From assembly GCF_000184705.1 (NCBI RefSeq), contig NC_014831.1:1426001-1490000 (forward strand): a stretch of DNA of 64,000 nucleotides, given 5' to 3'. Position numbers and translations under genes: made by a program. The DNA comes from Thermaerobacter marianensis DSM 12885 (lineage in GTDB: Bacteria > Bacillota > Sulfobacillia > Thermaerobacterales > Thermaerobacteraceae). Positions 24,978 through 40,061 of the stretch are shown piece by piece (the first letter of the stretch is position 1; each line of letters starts with the position of its first letter). The notes under the pieces were generated by a model that saw only the letters and a list, made by a program, of their open reading frames with translations, was not told the origin of the DNA and did no database searches.

Positions 24978-25151
24978 CCGCTTCCTCCCCTCCTCTGGCA
25001 TCTCGCCCGGACCTGTGGTGACGGGCCGTCATGGGACCCTTGCCGCGTCGCGGCCTGCCCCTCCCCCTCGCCCCCCGGACCCCGCGTAACGGGTACCGGG
25101 GAGCCGGCGGTGGCCGTCACGGCCGGCCCGTGCCCCGCGACCCGCCGGCCT

Positions 25152-25610
25152 TCACTCGATCCGCGTCACCACCACGGCCGTCAGCTGGTGCTCCTCCCCC
25201 ACCAGGCCGGCCAGCGGCGTGACGAACCGGAAGGGATAGGCTACCTGCACCACCAGCGCCTCCCCCACGCGCCGCTGGGCCGGTGCGGGGGACACGGTGA
25301 CGGTCAACTGCGACGTATCAAGGCCCGTGGCGGCCTGTTCGACCCGGGCGCGGATGGCGGCGTCGTCGCTGGCGTGGACGGCGCCGTAGCGGGCTCCTTC
25401 GCGGGCGGCGTGCCGGACCGTCAACCCGGTGTAGAAGTACCGGCCGAAGTCCAGAACCCCCATGAGAATCAGCAGGAGAACGGGCAAGAGCACGGCCATC
25501 TCCACCAGGGCCTGCCCCCTCTGGCCGCGGACCCTGCCAGGATGCCGCCCCCGCAGCCGCCCCGGGGCCGGCCGCAGGTCGTCCCGCCCGCCAGGCTTCG
25601 TTGCCGCCAC
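25152..25610 (-). CDS. TadE-family pseudopilin (locus A)
   Basis: A 152-residue TadE protein. After a basic leader comes GQALVEMAVLLPVLLLILMG, with the prepilin-type Gly and Glu, then VLDFGRYFYTGLTVRHAARE and GARYGAVHASDD, exactly the TadE domain signature. The GTG start lies about eight bases after GAGGAGGTG; a TTG six codons upstream is less likely because it overlaps the ribosome site. Needed as a minor pilin for Flp fibre formation. About 140 bp downstream of the Flp gene and 174 bp upstream of tadG. Confidence 0.92.
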   Translation of the reverse strand: MAATKPGGRDDLRPAPGRLRGRHPGRVRGQRGQALVEMAVLLPVLLLILMGVLDFGRYFYTGLTVRHAAREGARYGAVHASDDAAIRARVEQAATGLDTSQLTVTVSPAPAQRRVGEALVVQVAYPFRFVTPLAGLVGEEHQLTAVVVTRIE

Positions 25611-25727
25611 GGGGCCGCACCTCCTCAAGGCGCGTCGCGGACAGTAGCGCCAGCGGCGGGGCGCGGGCCTTAGGCCGCGGCCCCGCCGCCGCGCGGGGGG
25701 AGTTCTGTGATGGGGGTGGGGAAATGT

Positions 25728-25742
25728 GGTGGTGTTACCACC
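25728..25742 (-). terminator. Short inverted repeat after the locus A pilin gene
   Basis: GGTGGT-AAC-ACCACC, a six-base-pair stem with a three-base loop, 10 bp after the flp stop on the minus strand, followed by ACATTTCCCC. It could act as an attenuator that makes the pilin message more abundant than the assembly genes. The U-run is weak, so the role is inferred. Confidence 0.4.
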
Positions 25743-25752
25743 AAAACTGGTG

Positions 25753-25944
25753 CTATTGCGTGTTGTTGAGTTGCTGCGTCACGCGGCTAAAAATGGATCC
25801 CAAGCCACCGCTCAGGGCCACCAGGGCGCCGATCAGCACCACCGCGATGAGCGCAATGATCAGCCCGTATTCCACCATGCCCTGTCCCGCCTCGTCGCGC
25901 AGGCGGAACTTGACGCCCTCCCACCAGGCCATCAGCCGCAGCAT
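25753..25944 (-). CDS. Flp-family type IVb pilin (locus A)
   Basis: A 63-residue prepilin, the major fibre subunit candidate. The leader ends at EAGQG, followed by MVEYGLIIALIAVVLIGALV, a textbook Flp motif (cleavage after Gly, Glu at +5-type position, Tyr next). The C-terminus (SGGLGSIFSRVTQQLNNTQ) is short and polar. The ATG lies eight bases after AAGGAGG. First gene of locus A, with a candidate sigma-A promoter about 55 bp upstream. Base composition is less GC-extreme than the surrounding genes, consistent with a highly expressed gene. Confidence 0.94.
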   Translation of the reverse strand: MLRLMAWWEGVKFRLRDEAGQGMVEYGLIIALIAVVLIGALVALSGGLGSIFSRVTQQLNNTQ

Positions 25945-25997
25945 GCTGCCGCCCTCCTTTCGTCCCCGCCGGTTCGTCCGGCGCGTCGGCTGATTCC

Positions 25998-26026
25998 AGC
26001 CTAAAGGGCGGCGCCTGGGCTTCCAA
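25998..26026 (-). promoter_or_regulatory. Candidate sigma-A promoter for pilus locus A
   Basis: Minus strand TTGGAA (26026-26021) and TAGGCT (26003-25998) with a 17-bp spacer, about 55 bp upstream of the flp start. Both boxes deviate from consensus, so this is a moderate prediction, but it is the only plausible promoter in the 274-bp gap before degU. Confidence 0.5.
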
Positions 26027-26082
26027 TGGCCGGCAGGTCGCGTTTTGGCGGTCCCGCGGTCCTATGGCGGGGAATGGGATCG

Positions 26083-26102
26083 GGGTCCCAAAAAAGGGAC
26101 CC
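26083..26102. repeat. Perfect inverted repeat GGGTCCC-A6-GGGACCC
   Basis: Seven-base arms around six adenines in the gap between degU and the locus A pilin gene, about 60 bp upstream of the pilin promoter. It is distinct from the degU terminator at 26151-26180. An operator-like site for pilus control is one reading; the A6 loop would become U6 in a minus-strand transcript. Function unknown. Confidence 0.55.
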
Positions 26103-26142
26103 GAAGCGGGGACGGCCGGGTGGGCGCGCCGGAGACAGCCTC

Positions 26143-26180
26143 CAACGAAAGCGGCCCCGCCCGGTGAACGGCGGGGCCGC
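26143..26180 (-). terminator. Rho-independent terminator after degU
   Basis: Eleven-base-pair perfect stem (GCGGCCCCGCC at 26151-26161 and its complement at 26170-26180) followed on the minus strand by TTTCGTT. It lies 39 bp past the degU stop and isolates the degS-degU transcript from pilus locus A. Confidence 0.8.
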
Positions 26181-26218
26181 CAGCGAGGGCAACGCGGCCG
26201 GTGTCGGACCGTCTGGCC

Positions 26219-26875
26219 CTAAACCTTCACCCACCCCTCCCGGATGGCGTGGATCACCGCCTGGGTGCGGTCCGCCACGCCCAGCTTGCGGAAGATCGAC
26301 GTGATGTGGTTCTTCACCGTCTTCTCGCTGATGAACAGCCGCTGGCCGATCTCCCGGTTAGACACACCCTCGGCCACCAGCTGGAGCACCTCGAACTCGC
26401 GCCGGGTCAGCGGCTCGGGGATGCCGCCGCCTAAAGGCGTCCACCGCTCCCGGCGCCGGGTGCCCAGGTTCAGCACCCGGGCGGACAGGGTGGGATGCAC
26501 ATAGCCCTCGCCCCGGCAGCAGAGCCGCACCGCCTCCACCAGCGTGCGGGGTTCGACGTCTTTCAGGACGAACCCGCTGGCCCCGGCGGCGATGGCCTCC
26601 AGCAGGTACTCCTCCTGGTCGTGGATGGTCAGGACCAGGACCTGGGTTGAGGCCGAGGCCGACCGGATCTCCCGGGTGGCCTCGATGCCCGACATGTCCG
26701 GCAGGTTGATGTCCATCACCACGATGTCGGGCCGCAACCGGGCCGCCTGGCGCACCGCCTCGGCCCCGGTGCGCGCCTCTCCCACCACCTCGATGTCCGG
26801 TTCCAGGTGGAGCACCTGCCGCAGCCCCTCCCGCAGCAGGGCGTGGTCGTCAGCGATCAGGACCCGGATCGGCAT
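26219..26875 (-). CDS. degU: NarL/FixJ-family response regulator (DegU-like)
   Basis: A 218-residue DNA-binding regulator. The receiver domain spans residues 1-120 with IRVLIADDHALLREGLRQVL, the phosphoacceptor DIVVMDINLPDMSG and lysine FVLKD. The LuxR-type helix-turn-helix covers about 152-215 (EPLTRREFEVLQLVAEGVSN, SEKTVKNHITSIFRKLGVAD). The latter half is very close to B. subtilis DegU. The ATG overlaps the end of degS by 26 bp. Partner of the DegS-like kinase. In Bacillus this pair controls exoenzymes, competence, motility and biofilm; here it lies directly upstream of a pilus locus. Confidence 0.9.
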   Translation of the reverse strand: MPIRVLIADDHALLREGLRQVLHLEPDIEVVGEARTGAEAVRQAARLRPDIVVMDINLPDMSGIEATREIRSASASTQVLVLTIHDQEEYLLEAIAAGASGFVLKDVEPRTLVEAVRLCCRGEGYVHPTLSARVLNLGTRRRERWTPLGGGIPEPLTRREFEVLQLVAEGVSNREIGQRLFISEKTVKNHITSIFRKLGVADRTQAVIHAIREGWVKV

Positions 26876-28061
26876 GACCGGCTTCTTCCCTCCCCAGCGG
26901 GATCTCCAGGCGTACCCGCGTCCCGTGTCCGGGGCGGCTGCGGATCTCCAGCCGCCCGCCGACCATCGCCACCCGCTCCTGCATGTTCGCGAGGCCGAAA
27001 CGATCGGTGCCGCGGGGCGCGGCGGGGTCGAACCCGCAACCGTCGTCGGCCACTTCCGCCCACAGCCGCTGTGCGGCAAACTCCACCCGCAGGACCACCC
27101 GGCTGGCGCCGGCATGCTTCCAGACGTTGTTCAGAGCCTCTTGCAGCACCCGGTAGACCGTGATCTCCACGGCGGGGTCCAGGCGCCGCGCGGATCCCCG
27201 GGAGACCAGCTCCACCGGCAGACCCGTCTTCTCGATGAACCCCGCCACGTACTGGCGCAGGGCGGGCAGGAGGCCGAGGTCGTCCAGGGCCATGGGCCGC
27301 AGGTCGAAGATGATCTTGCGCACGTCCTGCAGGCTCTCCCGGGTCAAGGCCTTGAGCCGCTCCAGCTCCTCCCGGGCCCGCGCCACGTCCTCGTCCAGGA
27401 GGCGCTGGCACACCTCCACCCGCAACACCACGTTGGCCAGCATCTGGGCCGGGCCGTCGTGGATGTCCCGGGCCAACCGGCGCCGTTCCTCCTCCTGGGC
27501 TTTCAGGAGCATGAGGCCCACCTGCAACCGGCGTTGCAGGTCCGCCGCCTGACCCAAAAGCTGCCCCAGCTTGCCCGAGAGCAGCTCCAGCGCCAGGCGG
27601 ATGTTCCCGGCGAGCTCCTCCGCCCGCTGCACCGTGGCGCCCAGCCGGCGCAGCCGCCGCTCCAGTTCGTCCCGGCGCTGGCGGAGCTGGGCCTCCCGCT
27701 CCTGGGCCCGCACCCACTGCTCGTGAAGACGCATGGCCTCCTCGTAGGCCTCGCGGTAGGCCTCTTCGCCGTACCGGTGAAAGTGCCGGGAGATCTCCAC
27801 CAGCCGCAGGCGCGCCCCCTGCTGCCTCCGCGCCAGGTCGTCCACCTGCTGGATCAGGGCCTGGACTTGAGCCCGGACCTCGTCCAGCTCCCGGGCGGCC
27901 TCCCGGTACTCCTCCCGGGCCTGCTCGGCGATGAAGAAGACCTGCTCTCGGCCGCGTTCCACCGCCGCCAGGGTCTCCCGCAAGACCCGGTCGAGGGTCA
28001 CGGGATCGAGGGGACCCGGGATGGAGGCCTCCGCCGCTTCCACCGACGCCAAGGGCACCAC
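26850..28061 (-). CDS. degS: DegS-like cytoplasmic sensor histidine kinase
   Basis: A protein of about 403 residues. Residues 10-180 are a sensor region of long coiled coils (LDRVLRETLAAVERGREQVF aligns with the start of Bacillus DegS; SEVSRNFHRF-like LVEISRHFHRYGEEAYREAY near 100). The HisKA_3 box EEERRRLARDIHDGPAQMLA near residue 195 holds the phosphorylated histidine. IIFDLRPMALDDLGLLPALR near 250 is a DegS hallmark, and DDGCGFDP with GLANMQERVAMVGG form the HATPase domain. No membrane segment, as in DegS. The start is uncertain; the GTG at 28061 is chosen because the family similarity begins shortly after, though its ribosome site is poor. Confidence 0.9.
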   Translation of the reverse strand: MVPLASVEAAEASIPGPLDPVTLDRVLRETLAAVERGREQVFFIAEQAREEYREAARELDEVRAQVQALIQQVDDLARRQQGARLRLVEISRHFHRYGEEAYREAYEEAMRLHEQWVRAQEREAQLRQRRDELERRLRRLGATVQRAEELAGNIRLALELLSGKLGQLLGQAADLQRRLQVGLMLLKAQEEERRRLARDIHDGPAQMLANVVLRVEVCQRLLDEDVARAREELERLKALTRESLQDVRKIIFDLRPMALDDLGLLPALRQYVAGFIEKTGLPVELVSRGSARRLDPAVEITVYRVLQEALNNVWKHAGASRVVLRVEFAAQRLWAEVADDGCGFDPAAPRGTDRFGLANMQERVAMVGGRLEIRSRPGHGTRVRLEIPLGREEAGHADPGPDR

Positions 28062-28150
28062 CGCCGGGCGGCGCCGCCGCCGCGACCCGTTCCGGCCGCG
28101 CCCGCGGGCGCCATGTTCTGCCCCAGTTATCGGCGGAGAGGGAGAGACGG

Positions 28151-28669
28151 TTAAGACCGCAGGGCGCCGCGGCGGGCCAGGTGGCGCAGCACCCAGCGCT
28201 CCACCAGGCGCACCAGCCGGGTTCCGACGAACTCCTTGCCGGGGAGGGGGGTCACCAGCACGGTCACCATGCCCAGCCGGTTGCCGCCCAGCACATCGGT
28301 GAAGATCTGGTCGCCGATGACAGCGGCCTGGGCCGGTTCGACCCCGATGGTCTGGAGGGCGCGCAGGAAGGCACGGCGTCGCGGCTTGGTGGCGGCGTGG
28401 ACGGCGGGCACGCCGCAAGCCTGGGCGAAGAGCTGCACCCGATGCTCGAGGTTGTTGGACAGGATGCAGGCCGAAAAGCCCTGCTGGCGGGCCTCATCCA
28501 GCCAGCGCCGCAGCGTCTCGTCGGGCAGGGGCTGGTCGCGGCGTGCCAGGGTGTTGTCCAGGTCCAGGACCAACCCGCGCACGCCCAGGTCGCGCAGGTC
28601 GTCCCAACGGATGGCGTAGATCGAGGGCACGACGAATCGGGGCGTCAGCAACCGCCACAAGCGCTGCAC
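28151..28669 (-). CDS. yqeG: YqeG-family HAD phosphatase
   Basis: A 172-residue HAD-superfamily IIIA protein. Motif I VLDLDNTLARRDQPLP near residue 36, motif II ILSNN near 70, the conserved KPRRRAF lysine near 95, and IGDQIFTDVLGGNRLGM near 118 as the motif III/IV region are all present. The N-terminal LTPRFVVPSIYAI is typical of YqeG. It is related to mitochondrial PGP phosphatase Gep4, so phosphatidylglycerophosphate dephosphorylation is possible but not shown. The GTG start is chosen for AAGGAG eight bases upstream instead of an ATG 11 codons earlier. About 90 bp before degS, probably same transcript. Confidence 0.9.
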   Translation of the reverse strand: MQRLWRLLTPRFVVPSIYAIRWDDLRDLGVRGLVLDLDNTLARRDQPLPDETLRRWLDEARQQGFSACILSNNLEHRVQLFAQACGVPAVHAATKPRRRAFLRALQTIGVEPAQAAVIGDQIFTDVLGGNRLGMVTVLVTPLPGKEFVGTRLVRLVERWVLRHLARRGALRS

Positions 28670-28819
28670 GCGGGGGACTCCTTTCCGGTTCTCACGCCCC
28701 ATTATACGGCACGCACCCTGCGCCTCGCGGGTGGGATGGCCGGTCCGGTCGCTGGCCCGAGGACCGCAGCCCGAAGCCGCCCGTGCACGGGGGCCGCCGC
28801 CCCGACCGCCGGGAGAGGC

Positions 28820-29575
28820 CTAGGGTTCGCCGTCGTCCTCCTCCTCGTCCCGGGGACCGCCGGCCGGCAGGCCGGGTTCGTCCAGCACGTGGCGGGTCAG
28901 CTTGCGCACGGCCCGCTTTTCGATGCGGGAGACGTAGGAACGGGAGATGCCCAGCACCCGGGCCACCTCCCGCTGGGTGTAGCGGCGCTGGCCGTCCAGG
29001 CCGAAGCGCAGCTCCAGCACCCGGCGCTCCCGCGGCCCCAGCTCCCGCACCGCTTCCCGGATGCGTCGGGCCAGGAGCCGGCGGCCCACCGTGTCCTCTA
29101 CGGCGTCGTCGTCGGCGGGCAGCATGTCCATCAGGGTCACCTCGTTGCCCTCCCGGTCGACGCCGATGGGGTTCTGCAGGAAGACCTCCCGCCGGTTGCG
29201 GCGGGTCGCCCGCAGGTGCATCAGGATCTCGTTCTCGATGCACCGGGCGGCGTAGGTGGCCAGGCGCGTCCCCTTGCTGGGATCGTAGGTGTCGACGCCC
29301 TTGATCAGGCCCACGGTGCCGATGCTGATCAGGTCCTCCGGGTCCTCGCCGGTCTCGTCGAACTTCTTGGCGATGTGGGCCACCAGGCGCAGGTTGCGCT
29401 CGATCAGCACGTCCCGCGCCCGCTCGTCGCCGTGGCGCATGCGCTCCAGGTAGTGGGCCTCTTCCTCCGGGGTCAGGGGCTGGGGGAAGCTGCGGCCCGT
29501 CTGCAGGTAGCCGACCAGGTAGAGCAGGCCGCGCACCAGGGCCGCCCCAAGGAGCAGCAGCCATCCGGGTCCCAT
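28820..29575 (-). CDS. sigK: RNA polymerase sporulation sigma factor, SigK type
   Basis: A 251-residue sigma-70 family protein. The first 20 residues (WLLLLGAALVRGLLYLVGYL) form the hydrophobic pro-peptide typical of pro-sigma-K, removed by SpoIVFB in Bacillus. Region 2 (LIERNLRLVAHIAKKFDETG, EDPEDLISIGTVGLIKGVDT, YAARCIENEILMHLRATRRN) and region 4 (RRYTQREVARVLGISRSYVS RIEKRA) align closely with SigK. The gene is intact and not interrupted by a skin element. The ATG follows AGGAGG at seven bases. A short acidic tail (RDEEEDDGEP) ends the protein. It implies a spore-forming host and late mother-cell expression. Confidence 0.92.
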   Translation of the reverse strand: MGPGWLLLLGAALVRGLLYLVGYLQTGRSFPQPLTPEEEAHYLERMRHGDERARDVLIERNLRLVAHIAKKFDETGEDPEDLISIGTVGLIKGVDTYDPSKGTRLATYAARCIENEILMHLRATRRNRREVFLQNPIGVDREGNEVTLMDMLPADDDAVEDTVGRRLLARRIREAVRELGPRERRVLELRFGLDGQRRYTQREVARVLGISRSYVSRIEKRAVRKLTRHVLDEPGLPAGGPRDEEEDDGEP

Positions 29576-29996
29576 GGCAGCGCCTCCTCGCCGAAGTACG
29601 GGATGCCGCCGTGCCCGCTGCTCGTACCGCCGGGCGCGGGGATTCCCGCACGGGCCTCGCCGCCGGCGAGGGCCGCACCGGGGACAGGTCCGAGCCCACA
29701 CCCTGCGGCGCGGGGCATGCCGGGGCCGGAGGGGCCGGACCCCCGGCGCGGGACGAACCCGTCACACCCGGCAGCGTGGCGAGCCAGCACGCGGGGCACT
29801 GCCACGGTATGCGCAGCGGGCGCGGGCCGTACCTGTCCGGTGTGGAAAATGGGCGCAGGCGGAGGCCGATGGGTGCGGCATGGCAGGCAACGGAGGCGGG
29901 CAACCGGCTCCCGCCCGGGTGGCCCGGAGCGCCCCGCCCCGGAGGGGAACGCCGCGCCGGCCGGACGGGGCATGCGTCAAAGGCGCCGCTGGTGGT
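29576..29996. other. Intergenic region upstream of sigK
   Basis: A 421-bp gap between mltG and sigK. I find no gene with a convincing ribosome site. On the minus strand the octamer CATACCGT (29811-29804) resembles a sigma-E -10 box (CATACANT with one mismatch), which would fit sigK regulation, but no good -35 accompanies it. One GACGAACC motif copy occurs near 29750. Confidence 0.3.
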
Positions 29997-31073
29997 TCAA
30001 CCGTCCCGGTCCTGCAGCGACTGCCGGTAGGCCTGCACGTTGCGGTTGTGCTCGGCCAGGGTGCGGGCAAACCGGTGGCGACCCGACCCGTCGGGGCTCA
30101 GGACGAAGTACAGATAGTCGACGTCGGCGGGTTGAAGCACGGCTTGCAGCGCGGCCCGGCCCGGGGCGCCGATGGGCCCGGGCGGCAGGCCGGGGTACCG
30201 GTAGGTGTTGTAGGGCGAGTCGGTGCGCAGGTCGCGGTAGGTCAGGGTGCCCGAGGTCCGCCCCAGGGCGTAGAGCACCGTGGGGTCGGCGTCCAAGGAC
30301 ATGCCGCGCTCCAGGCGATTGAGGTAGACGGCCGCGATCACGGGCCGCTCGTCGGCGACCCGGGCCTCCCGCTCCACGATGGACGCCAGGGTGACCGCCT
30401 GGTGGACCGTCAGCCCCAGGCGGCGGGCCCGTTCCTCCTCACCCTCACCGAACACCTGGCGGAAGCGGTCCAGCATCATCCGGACCACCAGGGCCGGGTC
30501 GGCCCGCCCGGATTCGTCCACGGGAACCCGGTATGTATCGGGAATGAGGTATCCTTCCAGGGGCTCCTTGAGGGCGGCCCGCGCCTTGGGGTCGCGGGGG
30601 AGGTAGGGCCAGGTCGCCGCCGCCCGGTCCAGGGCGGCGCGGAAGGCCTGCCGGTCGACCAGCCCCTGCCGGTCCAGGTGGTCGGCCACCTGGGCCACGG
30701 TCCAGCCTTCGGGGATGGTGAAGCGGGCGGTGAGGATCTCGCCGCGGGCCAGCTTGTCCAGGATTGCCGCCGCCGGCATGCCCGGGCTCAAGCGGTAGAC
30801 CCCGGCCCGCAGCTCCCCGTCCCGCCCTTGCAGGCGGGCCAGCACACGGAAGGCCAGCGGGTCGCGGATCAGGCCGCGCCGGTAGAGCAGCTCGGCGATC
30901 TCCACCGAGGAGGCGCCGCGGGGTACCCGCACCACCACGGCCTGGGTCGAACCCGGCCTGGGCGGCTGGAGGGCATTCTGGTAAGCGCGGTAGGCCCAGC
31001 CCGCGGCCCCGGCGGCCGCCACGGCCAGCATCGCCACCACTGCGCCCAGCCATCGCCACGGGATGCGCCGCAC
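29997..31073 (-). CDS. mltG: Endolytic murein transglycosylase MltG (YceG family)
   Basis: Membrane-anchored lytic transglycosylase thought to end nascent glycan strands; 358 residues. N-terminal helix WLGAVVAMLAVAAAGAAGWA, a LysM-like region (RVPRGASSVEIAELLYRRGL near 48), then the catalytic YceG domain with LEGYLIPDTYRVP near 192, VTLASIVEREARVADERPVI near 246 containing the catalytic Glu, LDADPTVLYALG near 277 and LPPGPIGAPGRAALQAVLQP near 312. The GTG start is seven bases after AGGAGG. In B. subtilis the homologue (yrrL) also follows the ruvX-DUF1292 genes. Confidence 0.95.
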   Translation of the reverse strand: MRRIPWRWLGAVVAMLAVAAAGAAGWAYRAYQNALQPPRPGSTQAVVVRVPRGASSVEIAELLYRRGLIRDPLAFRVLARLQGRDGELRAGVYRLSPGMPAAAILDKLARGEILTARFTIPEGWTVAQVADHLDRQGLVDRQAFRAALDRAAATWPYLPRDPKARAALKEPLEGYLIPDTYRVPVDESGRADPALVVRMMLDRFRQVFGEGEEERARRLGLTVHQAVTLASIVEREARVADERPVIAAVYLNRLERGMSLDADPTVLYALGRTSGTLTYRDLRTDSPYNTYRYPGLPPGPIGAPGRAALQAVLQPADVDYLYFVLSPDGSGRHRFARTLAEHNRNVQAYRQSLQDRDG

Positions 31074-31332
31074 CGCTCGCCCTCCTCACCTCCCGCAGTT
31101 CGCGACGGGTCATGCCGATCCCTGCCCGGGCGGCCGCAGGGTTGGCCGGGCCCCGGCCGCGACCGGCCCCAACGGCCGCCGCCGCGTGGCGGGCCGGCTG
31201 CTCCGGCCGGGCCGGGGTTCGGAGCGGACGGATGGCACAACGCACTACCCTAGGCCACGCGGCCGACCCCAGGCCCCGACCGGCGCGGCGCGGGCTGCCG
31301 GACCCCGTTCCGGTCAGGCCGGGCGCCGGGTC

Positions 31333-32313
31333 TCACCGGCCCCGGCGCCCGCCGTCGCCTTCCTCATCGTCCTCGTCGTCCAGGTCGGCCTCGTCGCCAT
31401 CCAGCTCCTCCAGATCCTCCAGGTCCTCGTCGTCCAGGTCCGCGTCATCCAGTTCCTCGTCGTCGTCCTCCTCGTCCCACTCGGCCTCTTCCCATTCCTC
31501 GTCGTCGGCACCCAGGACTTCGTCGGCGTACTCGTCATCCTCTTCTTCCGCCATCATGTCTTCCCAGGCTTCGGCCACGGCGTCCCACTCGTCGTCGTCT
31601 TCGATCTCCACCAGCACCGGCGTCCCGTCGTCCTCGTGCAGCAGGCGGAAGATGAAGGCCTCCTCCTCGTCGTCGGGGTCGGCGACGATGGCATACTTCC
31701 GGTCGTTCATCTCCACCAGGTCGATGACGACGAACTGCTGCTCCTCGCCGTTCTCGTCCCGGAAGGTGACGATCCGGCGCTCCTCCGGCAGGTCCATCAC
31801 TGCCCCACCACCTTCCTCCACAGGCTCCTGGCTGAGAGATTCACCGCCGCGGGGCCGTCGCCTGCGCGCCTCGCCGGGAGATTCGCCGCCGCCGTCCCGT
31901 TGCCTGCGTTGGGACTGCAAGAACGCCTGCAGGATCACCGTCGCCGCCATGCGGTCGATGATCTGCTTCCTGCGGCGCCGCGACAGGTCCGCGGCGATCA
32001 GCACCCGCTCCGCCTCGACGGTCGACAGCCGCTCGTCCCATAGGGTGACCCTCGGCACGCCGGCCTCCCGCAAAGCGTCGGCAAACCGCTCGGCAGCCTC
32101 TGCCTCCGGACCGCGGGTCCCGTCCAGGCGCCGCGGCCAGCCGACCACTACGCCCCCGGCGCCGTGCCTTCTCACCAGGTCGGCCACCTGGGCCGCGTTC
32201 TCCGCGTCGGTGCGGCGCGGCAGGCTGCCCAGGGGCCGGGCCACGATCCCCTCGGGATCGCTGATCGCCACGCCGATCACGCGGGAGCCCAGGTCGAGGC
32301 CAAGCCAGCGCAT
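31333..32313 (-). CDS. ruvX: In-frame fusion of RuvX/YqgF and a DUF1292 (UPF0473) protein
   Basis: One open frame of 326 codons with no stop between two families that are normally separate adjacent genes (yrrK and yrzB in Bacillus). Residues 1-130 are a RuvX/YqgF RNase H-fold domain (MRWLGLDLGSRVIGVAISDP; VVVGWPRRLDGTRGPEAEAA; LWDERLSTVEAERVLI; KQIIDRMAATVILQAFL), implicated in 16S rRNA 5' processing. A basic linker of about 40 residues follows. Residues 173-230 are DUF1292 (RIVTFRDENGEEQQFVVIDL), ending in a roughly 75-residue Asp/Glu tail. GGAGGAAGGTGG before an internal ATG at 31797 could also give a separate 154-residue DUF1292 product. I checked codon by codon across 31798-31920 and found no stop. 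Confidence 0.88.
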   Translation of the reverse strand: MRWLGLDLGSRVIGVAISDPEGIVARPLGSLPRRTDAENAAQVADLVRRHGAGGVVVGWPRRLDGTRGPEAEAAERFADALREAGVPRVTLWDERLSTVEAERVLIAADLSRRRRKQIIDRMAATVILQAFLQSQRRQRDGGGESPGEARRRRPRGGESLSQEPVEEGGGAVMDLPEERRIVTFRDENGEEQQFVVIDLVEMNDRKYAIVADPDDEEEAFIFRLLHEDDGTPVLVEIEDDDEWDAVAEAWEDMMAEEEDDEYADEVLGADDEEWEEAEWDEEDDDEELDDADLDDEDLEDLEELDGDEADLDDEDDEEGDGGRRGR

Positions 32314-32378
32314 GGACCACCCTCGCCCTCCCTGCCCTGGCCGCGGACGAACCGGCCCGGCCGGCCCGCGGGCGCGGC

Positions 32379-33074
32379 TCAGAGCCACCGCGGTGCCCGC
32401 CGCCGCGGCGCCAGCAGCAACAACCCCGCGGCCCCAGCGACGAATCCCGCCACGTGGGCCCACCATGCCACCAGGCTCACGTTGGGCGCCCCCAGCGCCG
32501 CCAGGCCGTTGAACACCTGCAGCCCAAACCAGACCAGCAGGAAGACCCACGCGGGCACTTCCGCTACCGTAATGAAGACGAAGAGAAAAATCAAGGTAAT
32601 GATACGTGACCGGGGGAAGGCCAGGAAGTAGGCACCCAGGACCCCCGCCACGGCGCCGCTGGCGCCGATAGTGGGGATGGTGGACGAGGGGTTGGCCGCC
32701 ACGTGGGCCCAGTTGCCCAGCACGCCCGTCAGCAGGTAGAAGAGCAGGAACCGGCCCTTGCCCAGACGGTCTTCCACATTGTCGCCGAAGACCCACAAAA
32801 ACAACATGTTGCCCAGCAGGTGCACCGGGCTGCCGTGGAGGAACATGGCCGTGATCAGAGGAAGGTAGGGGCCCGGGCCGACCTGGGGCAACAGGGACAG
32901 GGGCGGGATGGAAGCGGGGATCACGCCGTAGCGCTCGGCCAGCATCCCGATCCCCGCGGCCGGGGTCGGACCCGTGGTCCATTCCACGTAAAACACATAG
33001 ACATTGATGGCAATGAGCAGTACGGTGATCCAGGGAAAGCGCCGGGAACGGATGGTGTCGCGCAACGGGATCAT
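32379..33074 (-). CDS. Rhomboid-family intramembrane serine protease
   Basis: A 231-residue polytopic membrane protease. WITVLLIAINVYVFYVEWTT is the first helix. HLLGNMLFLWVFGDNVEDRL (near residue 84) supplies the His and Asn of the oxyanion region, GASGAVAGVLGAYFLA (near 137) the catalytic serine, and WAHVAGFVAGAAGLLLL (near 205) the catalytic histidine, so the dyad is complete. The ATG follows AAGGAG at six bases. It lies between ireB and ruvX, in a spot where Bacillus has no rhomboid gene. Substrate unknown. Confidence 0.94.
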   Translation of the reverse strand: MIPLRDTIRSRRFPWITVLLIAINVYVFYVEWTTGPTPAAGIGMLAERYGVIPASIPPLSLLPQVGPGPYLPLITAMFLHGSPVHLLGNMLFLWVFGDNVEDRLGKGRFLLFYLLTGVLGNWAHVAANPSSTIPTIGASGAVAGVLGAYFLAFPRSRIITLIFLFVFITVAEVPAWVFLLVWFGLQVFNGLAALGAPNVSLVAWWAHVAGFVAGAAGLLLLAPRRRAPRWL

Positions 33075-33256
33075 GGTCTGCTCCTTCCTGCCGGTGCCTC
33101 CGGCTTCCCGTGCCCGGCCGGTGCGGGCGTCCCTCTACGGGGGCCCTGTTCCGGTCCGGCCCACCCCCCGCAGGCGGCCCTTCCGGTGCGAAATCCTGTG
33201 AGGCCACGGCGCCCGCGGCCCCTGGGTCCGCCGGGCGCCCGGAAGGCGAGGTGACC

Positions 33257-33562
33257 GTGGTGACCCAGCCGATGGTACCCTCCCCCCGGCCCCGCCCGCC
33301 CCGGTTGCGGCGGCGGCTCCGCCACGCCCGCCGGCCGGCGGCCCCGTGGCCCGGCGATGCGTGGGGTGCCGCGCCCGGTGTCGCCCCGCTCCCCGAGCCC
33401 CGCTCGCAGGCGGGCTTCTGGGCCCGCTTCAGGGCGGAGCTGGCCTTCGTCGCCAGCTTGAAAGGCCTGTGGCTGGCGGTCGCCGCCGGCGGGTTCGTGG
33501 CCGGGTTCCTCCTGGGGACCTGGTTCGGGCGGGCCCTGGCGGCCGCCGCCCGTCTGCAGTAG
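33257..33562 (+). CDS. Hypothetical single-span membrane protein
   Basis: About 101 residues. An Arg/Pro-rich N-terminal half is followed by FWARFRAELAFVASLKG and one strong membrane helix (LWLAVAAGGFVAGFLLGTWF, about 73-92), ending RALAAAARLQ. A purine-rich GGAAGGCGAGGTGA precedes three clustered GTG codons (33251, 33257, 33260); the middle one is used here. No family recognised. On the plus strand between the divergent rhomboid and convergent ireB genes. Codon pattern fits coding but the short length leaves doubt. Confidence 0.55.
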   Translation: MVTQPMVPSPRPRPPRLRRRLRHARRPAAPWPGDAWGAAPGVAPLPEPRSQAGFWARFRAELAFVASLKGLWLAVAAGGFVAGFLLGTWFGRALAAAARLQ

Positions 33563-33732
33563 GCCCGCTGACCACCACTCCTCCCGGCAGGCCGCCCGAC
33601 CTCCCGCCCGTCGCCCGGTCGCCCCCCTGCCGGCCGGCAGGCAACCGCGGTCTGGCGGCCGGCCCTGCCCGACAGCGGTGAGGCTCCTCGGCAGGGCGCC
33701 CGGCGTGACCGCCTGCCGCAGGCCGCCTGCCG

Positions 33733-34164
33733 CTACGCCTCCCGGCGCGCCTCCCGGGCCCGGAGTCCCATCACGTACGACCGCACCAGCTCGGCCAGCA
33801 GTTCATCCCGTTCCACCCGGGCCACCAGCGCCCGGGCGCCGCGATGGCTGGTGATGTAGGCAGGATCACCGGACAAGAGGTAACCCGCCAGCTGCCGCAC
33901 GGGGTCGTAGCCCCGTTCTTCCAGGGCCTGGTACACCGCCGCCAGGATGGCCGCGGGATCCGCCGGCTGCCCGGCGGATCCCGCGGCGGGGCCCGTCGCA
34001 CCGAGGGCCAGGCCCCCGTACATCGTGGGCTCGCCGTCGGTAAAGGCACCTGCGGCCGTTCGGCCGGCCGCGGCCGCCCCGCCGGCCGGCCCGGCCAGCG
34101 GGCCCACCGCCAGCCCCCGCACCGGACCGTTCGCCGAGCGGGCCGGCTCCGCTCCCTGATGCAC
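33733..34164 (-). CDS. ireB: IreB-family regulatory phosphoprotein (UPF0297/YrzL), N-terminally extended
   Basis: A 143-residue protein whose last 85 residues are an IreB/UPF0297 domain: [40 protein letters not shown] and [20 protein letters not shown]. In Enterococcus IreB is a target of the Ser/Thr kinase IreK in cell-wall stress signalling. Normal family members are about 85-90 residues; here an extra 55-60 Ala/Gly/Pro-rich residues precede the domain. The GTG start is eight bases after GGAGG; an internal ATG near 34023 would give the usual length but lacks a ribosome site. Downstream of alaS, as in Bacillus. Confidence 0.88.
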
Positions 34165-34370
34165 GCCTTTCGCCTCCGATCGGTGAACACGCCGTGGGCG
34201 CTCCTGAACCCGCCGTGGTCGGGGCCGGGCAGACGCCGCAGGCAGGGTCCCGGCGTCCGCCTCCGGCAACCCGGCGGACAGGTCCACCGGCACCCGCCGC
34301 AGGCGTCCAGCCCGCCCCGGCCGGAGCCGCGCGCCGCGGCGTGCGGGCGCCGGTGCCACCGTCATCCTCG

Positions 34371-34390
34371 CGGTTCGGCCCGCCGAACCG
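34371..34390 (-). terminator. Hairpin just after alaS
   Basis: Perfect eight-base arms CGGTTCGG and CCGAACCG around a four-base loop, two bases past the alaS stop. No U-run follows, so termination is uncertain; it may instead pause or process the alaS-ireB message. Confidence 0.4.
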
Positions 34391-34392
34391 GG

Positions 34393-37867
<3,475 letters not shown>

Positions 37868-38335
37868 ATGCCGGTGAAACCCGGATTCGTTCCCGGCCTC
37901 CGCGCCGAGGTGGAGGCGACGGTCGACGCCGGCATGCAGGCGGCCTTCGACGGCCGGGTGATCCACCCCCTTTACTCCACCTGGTCGCTGGTTCACCATC
38001 TCGAACACGCCGCCCGCCGGGTGCTGGAACCCTATCTCGAACCCCACGAGGAGGGGGTCGGGTACGCGGTGGAGGTCCGCCACCTGGCGCCGACACCCGT
38101 GGGCGCCAGGGTGCGGGCGGTGGCGGTCCTGGAGGCGGTGGAGGGCAACCGGGTGGTCTGTCGCGTGGAAGCCTACAACGACCTGGAGAAGATCGCCGAA
38201 GGCCGGCAGGTCCAGGTGGTCCTCGACCGGGCCGCCTTCCGCCGGCGCATCGCCGAAGTCCAGCAGCGCCTGGGGACCGCGGCGGCCGGTACCCCGGGGC
38301 AGGGGCGGACCTCGCGGGAAGCCCCCGGCGTCTGA
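37868..38335 (+). CDS. FlK-type hotdog thioesterase
   Basis: A 155-residue acyl-CoA thioesterase of the fluoroacetyl-CoA thioesterase family. STWSLVHHLEHAARRVLEPY (near residue 38), then GYAVEVRHLAPTPVGARVRA (near 63), with Thr, Glu and His spaced T-x7-E-x25-H, exactly the FlK catalytic triad spacing. VVCRVEAYNDLEKIAEGRQV completes the hotdog fold. Most family members outside Streptomyces cattleya probably hydrolyse ordinary short acyl-CoAs. GAGGTG touches the ATG, so a GTG two codons later may be the true start. Divergent from alaS and convergent with the AI-2E transporter gene. Confidence 0.88.
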   Translation: MPVKPGFVPGLRAEVEATVDAGMQAAFDGRVIHPLYSTWSLVHHLEHAARRVLEPYLEPHEEGVGYAVEVRHLAPTPVGARVRAVAVLEAVEGNRVVCRVEAYNDLEKIAEGRQVQVVLDRAAFRRRIAEVQQRLGTAAAGTPGQGRTSREAPGV

Positions 38336-38372
38336 CCCGGGCGCAGGGTTCGACACCACCGGGCGCGGCCGC

Positions 38373-39839
38373 TCACTCCGGGGTCTTCGTGCCCGACGGA
38401 ACCGGGGTGCGGGGCGTGCTGCGGCCCGGCCGGGGCGGGGCGGCCGCCGCCTCGGGCGCGCCCGGCGCCCGGCGGGTTGCCGGCTGCGGGCCCTCGCCGG
38501 TCCGCGCCTCCGGCGCCCTGGGCGGGAGCGGCTCCGGTGTCCCGCGGGCGGGTGCCTCCCGTACGGGGGCTGTCCCTTCCAACGGCTCCGGCCGGGAGGT
38601 GCCCGCCGCCCACGGTGGCGGGGCGTGGCCCGGGTTCGGCGTGGCACCGGCCGGCGGCCGGCCTTGGGGCGGCGCCGGCCGCCAACCCCGGAGCTTGCCG
38701 CCTGCCGCCGGACGCCCATGGCCGGCGGTCCCGGCGGGTGCCGGACCTCCCCCGCCGGCCCCGGTGGCCGGGGCGCTAGGGCCCCCCGGCCCGCGCCCCG
38801 CCAGCCGGCCGATCCCACCCACCCACTCCGGCCAGGCGAAAGCCAGGAGCACGTGGACGAGTCCCGCCACGGGAACGGCAAAGAGCAGGCCGGCCAGGCC
38901 GAAATGGTGGCCGGCCACCAGGAGCGCGCCGATCACCACCAGCGGGTGCACGCCCACCCGCTGGCCCAGGATGCGGGGCGAGAGCACGCTGTTCTCCACC
39001 CACTGGATCAGCAGCAGCGCCAAGGCCACCTTGACGGCCGTGGCCGGCGACTGGAGGGCCGCCATGGCCACCACGGGCACGGCGCCGATGATCGGACCGA
39101 AGTAGGGGATCAGGTCGGCCAGGGCCGCCAGGGCTCCCAGCAGCACGGCGAAGCGGAGGCCGAAGAAGGTGGCAACGGCGGTCACCATGAACCCCACGAA
39201 GCCGGCCACCAGCAGCTGCCCGCGGATGAACCCGCCGACCACCTGGTCCACGGCACGAACCAGCTCCAGCCAGCGCCGGCGCCGCCCCCGGCCCAGGCGC
39301 TCCCGTGCCCAGCGGCGCAGCCGCGGCAGGTCGTTGAGCAGGTAGAACGCCATGACCGGTGCCAGCAGCAGGGGCGCAGCGCCCAGCAGCCCTTCCACCA
39401 GGCCGCCCGTCAGATCGGCCAGCAGGGCAGTGACCCAGGCCTCGGTGCGATCGATCTGCTGCAGCACCGCTTGGCGCACCGTGGCGGGCAGCGTCGCCCG
39501 GGCCGCGTCCTGCCGGACCCCTTCCACCAGCGTCCGCAGCCGGCGGGTGTAACCCGGAAGCTGGGTTCCCAGCCGGTTCAGCTCGTCCAGGAAACCGGGC
39601 AGGAGATAGACCACGGCCACCGCCGCCGCCAGGGTGACCAGCAGGTAGAGCAGGAGGATGGCCGTGGCCCGGCGCAGGCCATAGGCCTCGAGAAAGTCCA
39701 CGGCCGGTGCCAGAAGATAGGTCAGGACCAGGGCGAGGACGAAGGGCGGCCAGGTGCCCCGCAGCAGGTAGAGGAGCCCCAGCCCGGCCGCGGCCAGGGC
39801 GGCGACGGAGAGGAGCCCACGCCAGGATGCCGGCGGCAT
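38373..39839 (-). CDS. AI-2E-family transporter (PerM/YdbO type)
   Basis: A 488-residue membrane protein. About seven to eight helices lie in residues 5-345, with family signatures LLAPVMAFYLLNDLPRLRRW near 160, DLIPYFGPIIGAVPVVAMAA near 245 and SPRILGQRVGVHPLVVIGAL near 288. The C-terminal 140 residues are a Pro/Gly/Ala-rich cytoplasmic or surface tail not found in standard members. Substrate is unknown; the family includes Na+/H+ antiporters and a proposed AI-2 exporter. Last gene of a three-gene operon with the small proteins at 39849 and 40066. The ribosome site is weak. Confidence 0.92.
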   Translation of the reverse strand: MPPASWRGLLSVAALAAAGLGLLYLLRGTWPPFVLALVLTYLLAPAVDFLEAYGLRRATAILLLYLLVTLAAAVAVVYLLPGFLDELNRLGTQLPGYTRRLRTLVEGVRQDAARATLPATVRQAVLQQIDRTEAWVTALLADLTGGLVEGLLGAAPLLLAPVMAFYLLNDLPRLRRWARERLGRGRRRRWLELVRAVDQVVGGFIRGQLLVAGFVGFMVTAVATFFGLRFAVLLGALAALADLIPYFGPIIGAVPVVAMAALQSPATAVKVALALLLIQWVENSVLSPRILGQRVGVHPLVVIGALLVAGHHFGLAGLLFAVPVAGLVHVLLAFAWPEWVGGIGRLAGRGPGGPSAPATGAGGGGPAPAGTAGHGRPAAGGKLRGWRPAPPQGRPPAGATPNPGHAPPPWAAGTSRPEPLEGTAPVREAPARGTPEPLPPRAPEARTGEGPQPATRRAPGAPEAAAAPPRPGRSTPRTPVPSGTKTPE

Positions 39840-39848
39840 GGCCGCGTT

Positions 39849-40061
39849 CTACCGCGCACCCACCCGGGCCAGCCCGCGCTGGGCCCGCGGCCGCGCCCAG
39901 CGCACCAGGCGCCGGCGCTGCCGGGGCAGCTCGAGCTCCAGCCACCGCCGGCTCCAGCGGCCCGCGCGGGCCAGCCAGCGGCCGGGCCGCATGCCCGCAC
40001 CCTCCAGGGCCGCCACCACCAGGCCGCCGATGACCACGCCCGCCCAGAACCGGCCGCCCAT
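39849..40061 (-). CDS. Small membrane protein of unknown function
   Basis: Seventy residues: one N-terminal helix (FWAGVVIGGLVVAALEGAGM) followed by a strongly basic C-terminus (RWSRRWLELELPRQRRRLVR). The ATG follows GGAGGGGTGA. Four base pairs after the zinc-ribbon gene and nine before the AI-2E transporter, so it is cotranscribed. YtxH-like in layout but no clear family. Confidence 0.65.
   Translation of the reverse strand: MGGRFWAGVVIGGLVVAALEGAGMRPGRWLARAGRWSRRWLELELPRQRRRLVRWARPRAQRGLARVGAR

Follow-up and report, generated by a model that had tools for sequence, protein, structure and literature searches.

DUF1292 is a widespread domain that, to our knowledge, is uncharacterised. In Bacillus subtilis it is represented by yrzB, which we take to be a DUF1292/UPF0473 gene, and Bacillus presumably has other genes, of the IreB type (yrzL), between alaS and ruvX. 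The B. subtilis genes yrrK (RuvX, BSU27390) and yrzB (BSU27380) are separate, carry adjacent locus tags and lie beside yrrL (PMC3814617). RuvX is essential in several bacteria, and its role, in 16S rRNA maturation or in junction resolution, is debated (PMC9601230). Some phage endolysins come from one frame that gives two products by way of an internal start, as we propose below for a bacterial gene; in the endolysins, however, the short product is a trimmed protein, whereas here it would be the product of a formerly independent gene (PMC12203907). In a literature search, a single paper named both RuvX and DUF1292, and did so incidentally.

We have analysed a window of 64,000 nucleotides (the whole stretch of DNA under study) from the heat-loving bacterium Thermaerobacter marianensis. 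Like B. subtilis, this organism has both domains beside an mltG/yceG-like gene (yrrL in B. subtilis). Yet the B. subtilis pair consists of two genes with a stop between them, whereas T. marianensis has one frame, with a rhomboid-like gene between alaS and ruvX. The same-strand neighbours, named by their reading frames, are alaS and the rhomboid-like gene upstream and mltG downstream. A sequence-only reading of this DNA had held that the two genes are separate and adjacent in Bacillus; this is borne out, and it is also the state of most relatives. The rhomboid-like gene, named from its frame, occupies 32379-33074 on the minus strand. Rfam families gave no match in the window from 25000 to 40000.

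The fused frame and its domains

We observed that the frame opening at ATG 32313 on the minus strand runs for 326 codons, to a stop ending at 31333, and passes from the RuvX domain into DUF1292 uninterrupted by a stop codon. The features of the locus are as follows.

31333..32313, minus strand: fused ruvX-DUF1292 frame, 326 aa, 36.7 kDa (translation and Pfam)
31915..32313, minus strand: RuvX/YqgF domain, residues 1-133 (PF03652, E 1.7e-40; predicted fold; D7, E94, D120)
31798..31914, minus strand: linker, residues 134-172 (no third-position bias; low GC3)
31806..31819, minus strand: putative internal Shine-Dalgarno-like sequence GGAGGAAGGTGGTG (duplex energy; conserved across the genus)
31795..31800, minus strand: putative internal start codons GTG-ATG (start codon at the aligned position in 5/5 genomes of the family)
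31549..31755, minus strand: DUF1292 domain, residues 187-255 (PF06949, E 3.3e-18; five strands then a helix in the predicted model)
31336..31548, minus strand: acidic tail, 71 residues (46 D/E; model confidence mostly low)

In profile searches the RuvX part scored 138.9 bits against PF03652 (curated cut-off 29.2) and 106.7 bits against TIGR00250 (43.25), and the DUF1292 part scored 66.8 bits against PF06949 in the Pfam search (curated cut-off 24). Genome-wide, over a single contig of 2,844,696 bases, each of the two profiles matched only here, so that the fused gene is the sole source of both domains. That the domains share a frame with no intervening stop, as had been read from the letters, is confirmed by translation, by Pfam and by all 5 genomes of the family. 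The same reading described a basic linker of 40 residues and an acidic tail of about 75; the linker has nearly that length (39 residues) but its basic character is weak (8 K/R, 7 D/E), and the tail agrees well, with 46 D/E among its 71 residues. The DUF1292 profile also matches in Synechococcus elongatus, so that this family is not confined to Bacillota.

AlphaFold2 modelled residues 1-133 confidently (block pLDDT 87-98), and the best PDB matches of this model were 1vhx from B. subtilis (E 2.4e-12) and 7ess from M. tuberculosis; the segment is predicted to adopt an RNase H-like fold. The YqgF active site has three carboxylates, located in strand 1, at the end of strand 5 and in helix 3 (PMC9601230), and D7, E94 and D120 fall at these positions by motif and by structural element in the predicted model. 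The DUF1292 part is predicted to form five strands followed by a helix. Comparison of this model with the PDB gave no Foldseek match at E <= 0.001, a profile search found no solved DUF1292 structure, and the best VIA match was weak (Z 4.2), with SH3/Tudor-like barrels among the matches, from which no function can be inferred. The AlphaFold2 model showed no docking between the domains, and its confidence was low throughout the linker and in the greater part of the tail.

At about 73% G+C, an open frame alone is weak evidence for a fusion: a randomised linker of equal dinucleotide composition would be open with a probability of about 0.6, and upstream of ruvX the frame of the fusion likewise stays open over a long distance (799 codons). 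We base the fusion on the presence of both domains in a common frame and on the family of the window (f1), in which 5/5 genomes, from four Thermaerobacter species and the only other genus sampled, have the fused open frame. The gene of the non-Thermaerobacter genome (G004) is split over two contigs, whose exact overlap of 127 nt identifies it as one gene; the apparent extra copy of DUF1292 in this genome is rejected accordingly. A conserved stop between the domains, which the sequence-only reading had named as counter-evidence, is absent from all 5 genomes of f1. In both genomes of the neighbouring family, which belongs to the same order, ruvX and DUF1292 are separate genes with stops and lie in different frames. 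That an assembly or sequencing error conceals a ruvX stop is hardly conceivable: five genomes have the open frame in common despite diverged linkers, and their agreement refutes an indel or assembly error in the linker. The fusion is thus real and, on the simplest reading of these sequences, no younger than the family.

Distribution of the fusion

We surveyed 154 genomes of the class and read the domain border in 109 loci, the choice of which favoured same-frame pairs, so that only within-family proportions can be quoted. Fused calls were re-checked by reading frames; in-alignment stop counts mislead where an alignment overruns the gene end. The same fusion, for which a search in relatives had been advised from the sequence, was found in 5/5 genomes of f1, in 29/33 of f8 (the other 4/33 having separate genes), in one genus each of f7, f26, f45 and f46 and, outside the class, once more in a 398-genome sample of the phylum whose candidates were frame-checked. 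This last fusion (L130, genome G399, family f96) apparently arose independently of the others. A short-pattern scan of genome contigs, which possibly did not extend to the near relatives of the window, showed no further fusion.

In a tree of the joined domains, f1, f7 (genus g34), f26 (genus g88) and f8 together with f45 and f46 stand apart, with a minimum of nine state changes. Because this is a quick tree, in which many forks are weak and branches are long, we hold the claim to a lower bound and give no exact number: the RuvX-DUF1292 fusion likely arose at least four times. The fusions of f8 and of the other families of the class have the domain order of T. marianensis and no stop, and those of f8 also keep the internal Shine-Dalgarno sequence and start, as in T. 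marianensis. In f8 and these other families the linker is mostly shorter (72-120 nt between the domains, versus 93-135 in f1) and the acidic tails are short.

The fused state also has exceptions within f8, in two genera. In the unfused members of genus g69, a stop directly precedes the DUF1292 ATG. In two species of genus g76 (L079 and L080, genomes G131 and G128), ruvX lies in another frame and overlaps the DUF1292 start, with its TGA stop inside the ATGGCTGA of that start, and the other members of the genus are fused; these overlapping separate genes are a natural reversal. In the unfused f8 sisters (L060, L068, L079 and L080), DUF1292 starts at the same ATG that their fused relatives have within the continuous frame.

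The probable internal start

At the domain border we found the purine-rich sequence GGAGGAAGGTGGTGGGGCAGTGATG, and TGGAGGAAGGTGGTGGGGCAGTGATG lies upstream of the DUF1292 start in the window. The calculated energy of pairing with the 16S end is -12.4 for the internal Shine-Dalgarno sequence, versus -11.4 at ruvX's own start; the internal site averages -12.2 across f1, and in-frame starts elsewhere in these genes give -3.7 to -5.5. Ribosome binding site and start codon are kept in 5/5 f1 genomes, and all four Thermaerobacter species share an unchanged GGTGGTGGGGCA block, whereas the remainder of the linker, upstream of the site, is down to 62-66% identity when the more distant species are compared. 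In the Shine-Dalgarno codons of f8, Glu is encoded by GAG in 25/25 representatives, other Glu columns mixing GAA and GAG, and Arg by AGA or AGG in 19/19, CGN prevailing elsewhere in the same genes; these are raw counts over related genomes, shared descent included. A synonymous-recoding test of the Shine-Dalgarno sequence gave p<0.05 in 9/29 f8 genes and, applied per gene in f1, was not significant (p 0.07-0.15). Initiation at ATG 31797 would give a free DUF1292 of 154 aa and 18.0 kDa. It had been suggested from the letters that the ATG at the border could yield such a protein; pairing energy, conservation and the ATG of the unfused sisters together make the internal start very likely real, and it very probably continues to yield free DUF1292.

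Linker and acidic tail

Between two f1 genes (L001 and L002), the linker differs by 0.19, 0.16 and 0.19 substitutions at the three codon positions, versus 0.14, 0.15 and 0.36 in RuvX, and its GC3 is 0.61-0.82, versus 0.89-0.96 in both domains. By these criteria the linker behaves like non-coding DNA, presumably former intergenic DNA, in its evolution and its composition. A direct repeat within the linker, sought as a sign of duplication, was not found, and length changes were too few and too little independent for frame conservation to serve as proof of selection on the tether.

In the other 36 fused genes, outside f1, the acidic tail has a median length of 8 residues and a maximum of 24, and on unfused DUF1292 proteins of other families it reaches 75 residues and has the same composition. 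Because long tails occur on unfused proteins and short ones on other fused proteins, tail length follows lineage and not fusion; these comparisons assign the tail to the DUF1292 of certain lineages, independently of the fusion.

Discussion

We propose, with a probability of about 0.68, that this is a two-product gene, in which a tight ruvX-DUF1292 operon would have lost the stop codon of ruvX and so have come to encode an obligate fusion together with free DUF1292. Ribosomes that start at 32313 would read through into DUF1292, and as there is no stop, RuvX could be produced on its own only by frameshift or drop-off; all RuvX of T. marianensis would then carry DUF1292 and the acidic tail. Ribosomes would also start internally, at ATG 31797 or GTG 31800, as the conserved signals suggest, so that two products, of 36.7 kDa and 18.0 kDa, are expected. 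The tether would set at least one DUF1292 per RuvX. DUF1292 may be a partner that assists or regulates RuvX, and the linker, which is long and probably flexible, may let either domain act without strict geometry; of the whole explanation, we are least certain of this functional step.

One alternative is that the gene makes the fusion only, with the internal GGAGGAAGGTGGTG and ATG unused and all DUF1292 tethered to RuvX. The Gly and Glu residues of the linker do themselves favour Shine-Dalgarno-like DNA, and the recoding p of about 0.1 in f1 agrees with this; yet in f8 the Shine-Dalgarno sequence is kept at the nucleotide level, the GGTGGTGGGGCA block is kept in the genus, and the same ATG serves as the start in unfused sisters, so that we consider this alternative unlikely. 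More improbable still is the idea that the acidic tail, or DUF1292, mimics nucleic acid and in this way inhibits RuvX in cis at its active site. It draws on the 46 acidic residues among the 71 of the tail and on the cutting of branched nucleic acids by RuvX/YqgF proteins (PMC9601230), but the tails of unfused proteins reach 75 residues and those of other fused genes are at most 24. The sequence-only suggestion that the tail mimics nucleic acid and regulates its own protein is left unsupported by these equal tails on unfused DUF1292.

A neutral fusion comes close to even odds. Here chance would have removed the ruvX stop, the operon being rich in G+C and its spacer short; the extension of RuvX would be merely tolerated, and free DUF1292 from the internal start would do the work, the fused form having no function of its own. 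This alternative concerns function only and fits the two-product anatomy, so its probability overlaps with that of our main explanation. It is favoured by the equal substitution rates at the three codon positions of the linker and its low GC3, by the chance of about 0.6 of an open linker, by the unfused species within a fused f8 genus and by the retained signals for free DUF1292. Against it stand the fused state of 5/5 (f1) and 29/33 (f8) genomes and the repeated origin, which are not statistically decisive given shared descent; shared descent, and the high probability that a linker stays open by chance, leave room for the neutral reading. A linker without peptide-level selection would be a spacer at best, and the separate genes in 4/33 f8 genomes make the tether dispensable there. 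We therefore give about even weight to a functional tether. The earlier proposal that the two domains act together is plausible: frequent adjacency and repeated fusion speak for it, and a linker with no coding signature speaks against it.

Whichever of these holds for the tether, two operon neighbours have been joined here, as they have repeatedly in other lineages, and the internal start has been kept; the locus is as such a variant of a known arrangement. Annotation of such loci as only one gene, or as only two, would miss a product. The fused, stop-separated and frame-overlapping relatives form a natural series for testing the tether. Recurrent fusion to RuvX points DUF1292 towards a shared pathway. 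It is a bolder and rather unlikely extension that DUF1292 would be a dedicated partner of RuvX across Bacillota, with a repeatedly selected fusion and a controlled free pool, the tethered and free forms competing and setting RuvX activity; if true, this would be the first function for DUF1292.
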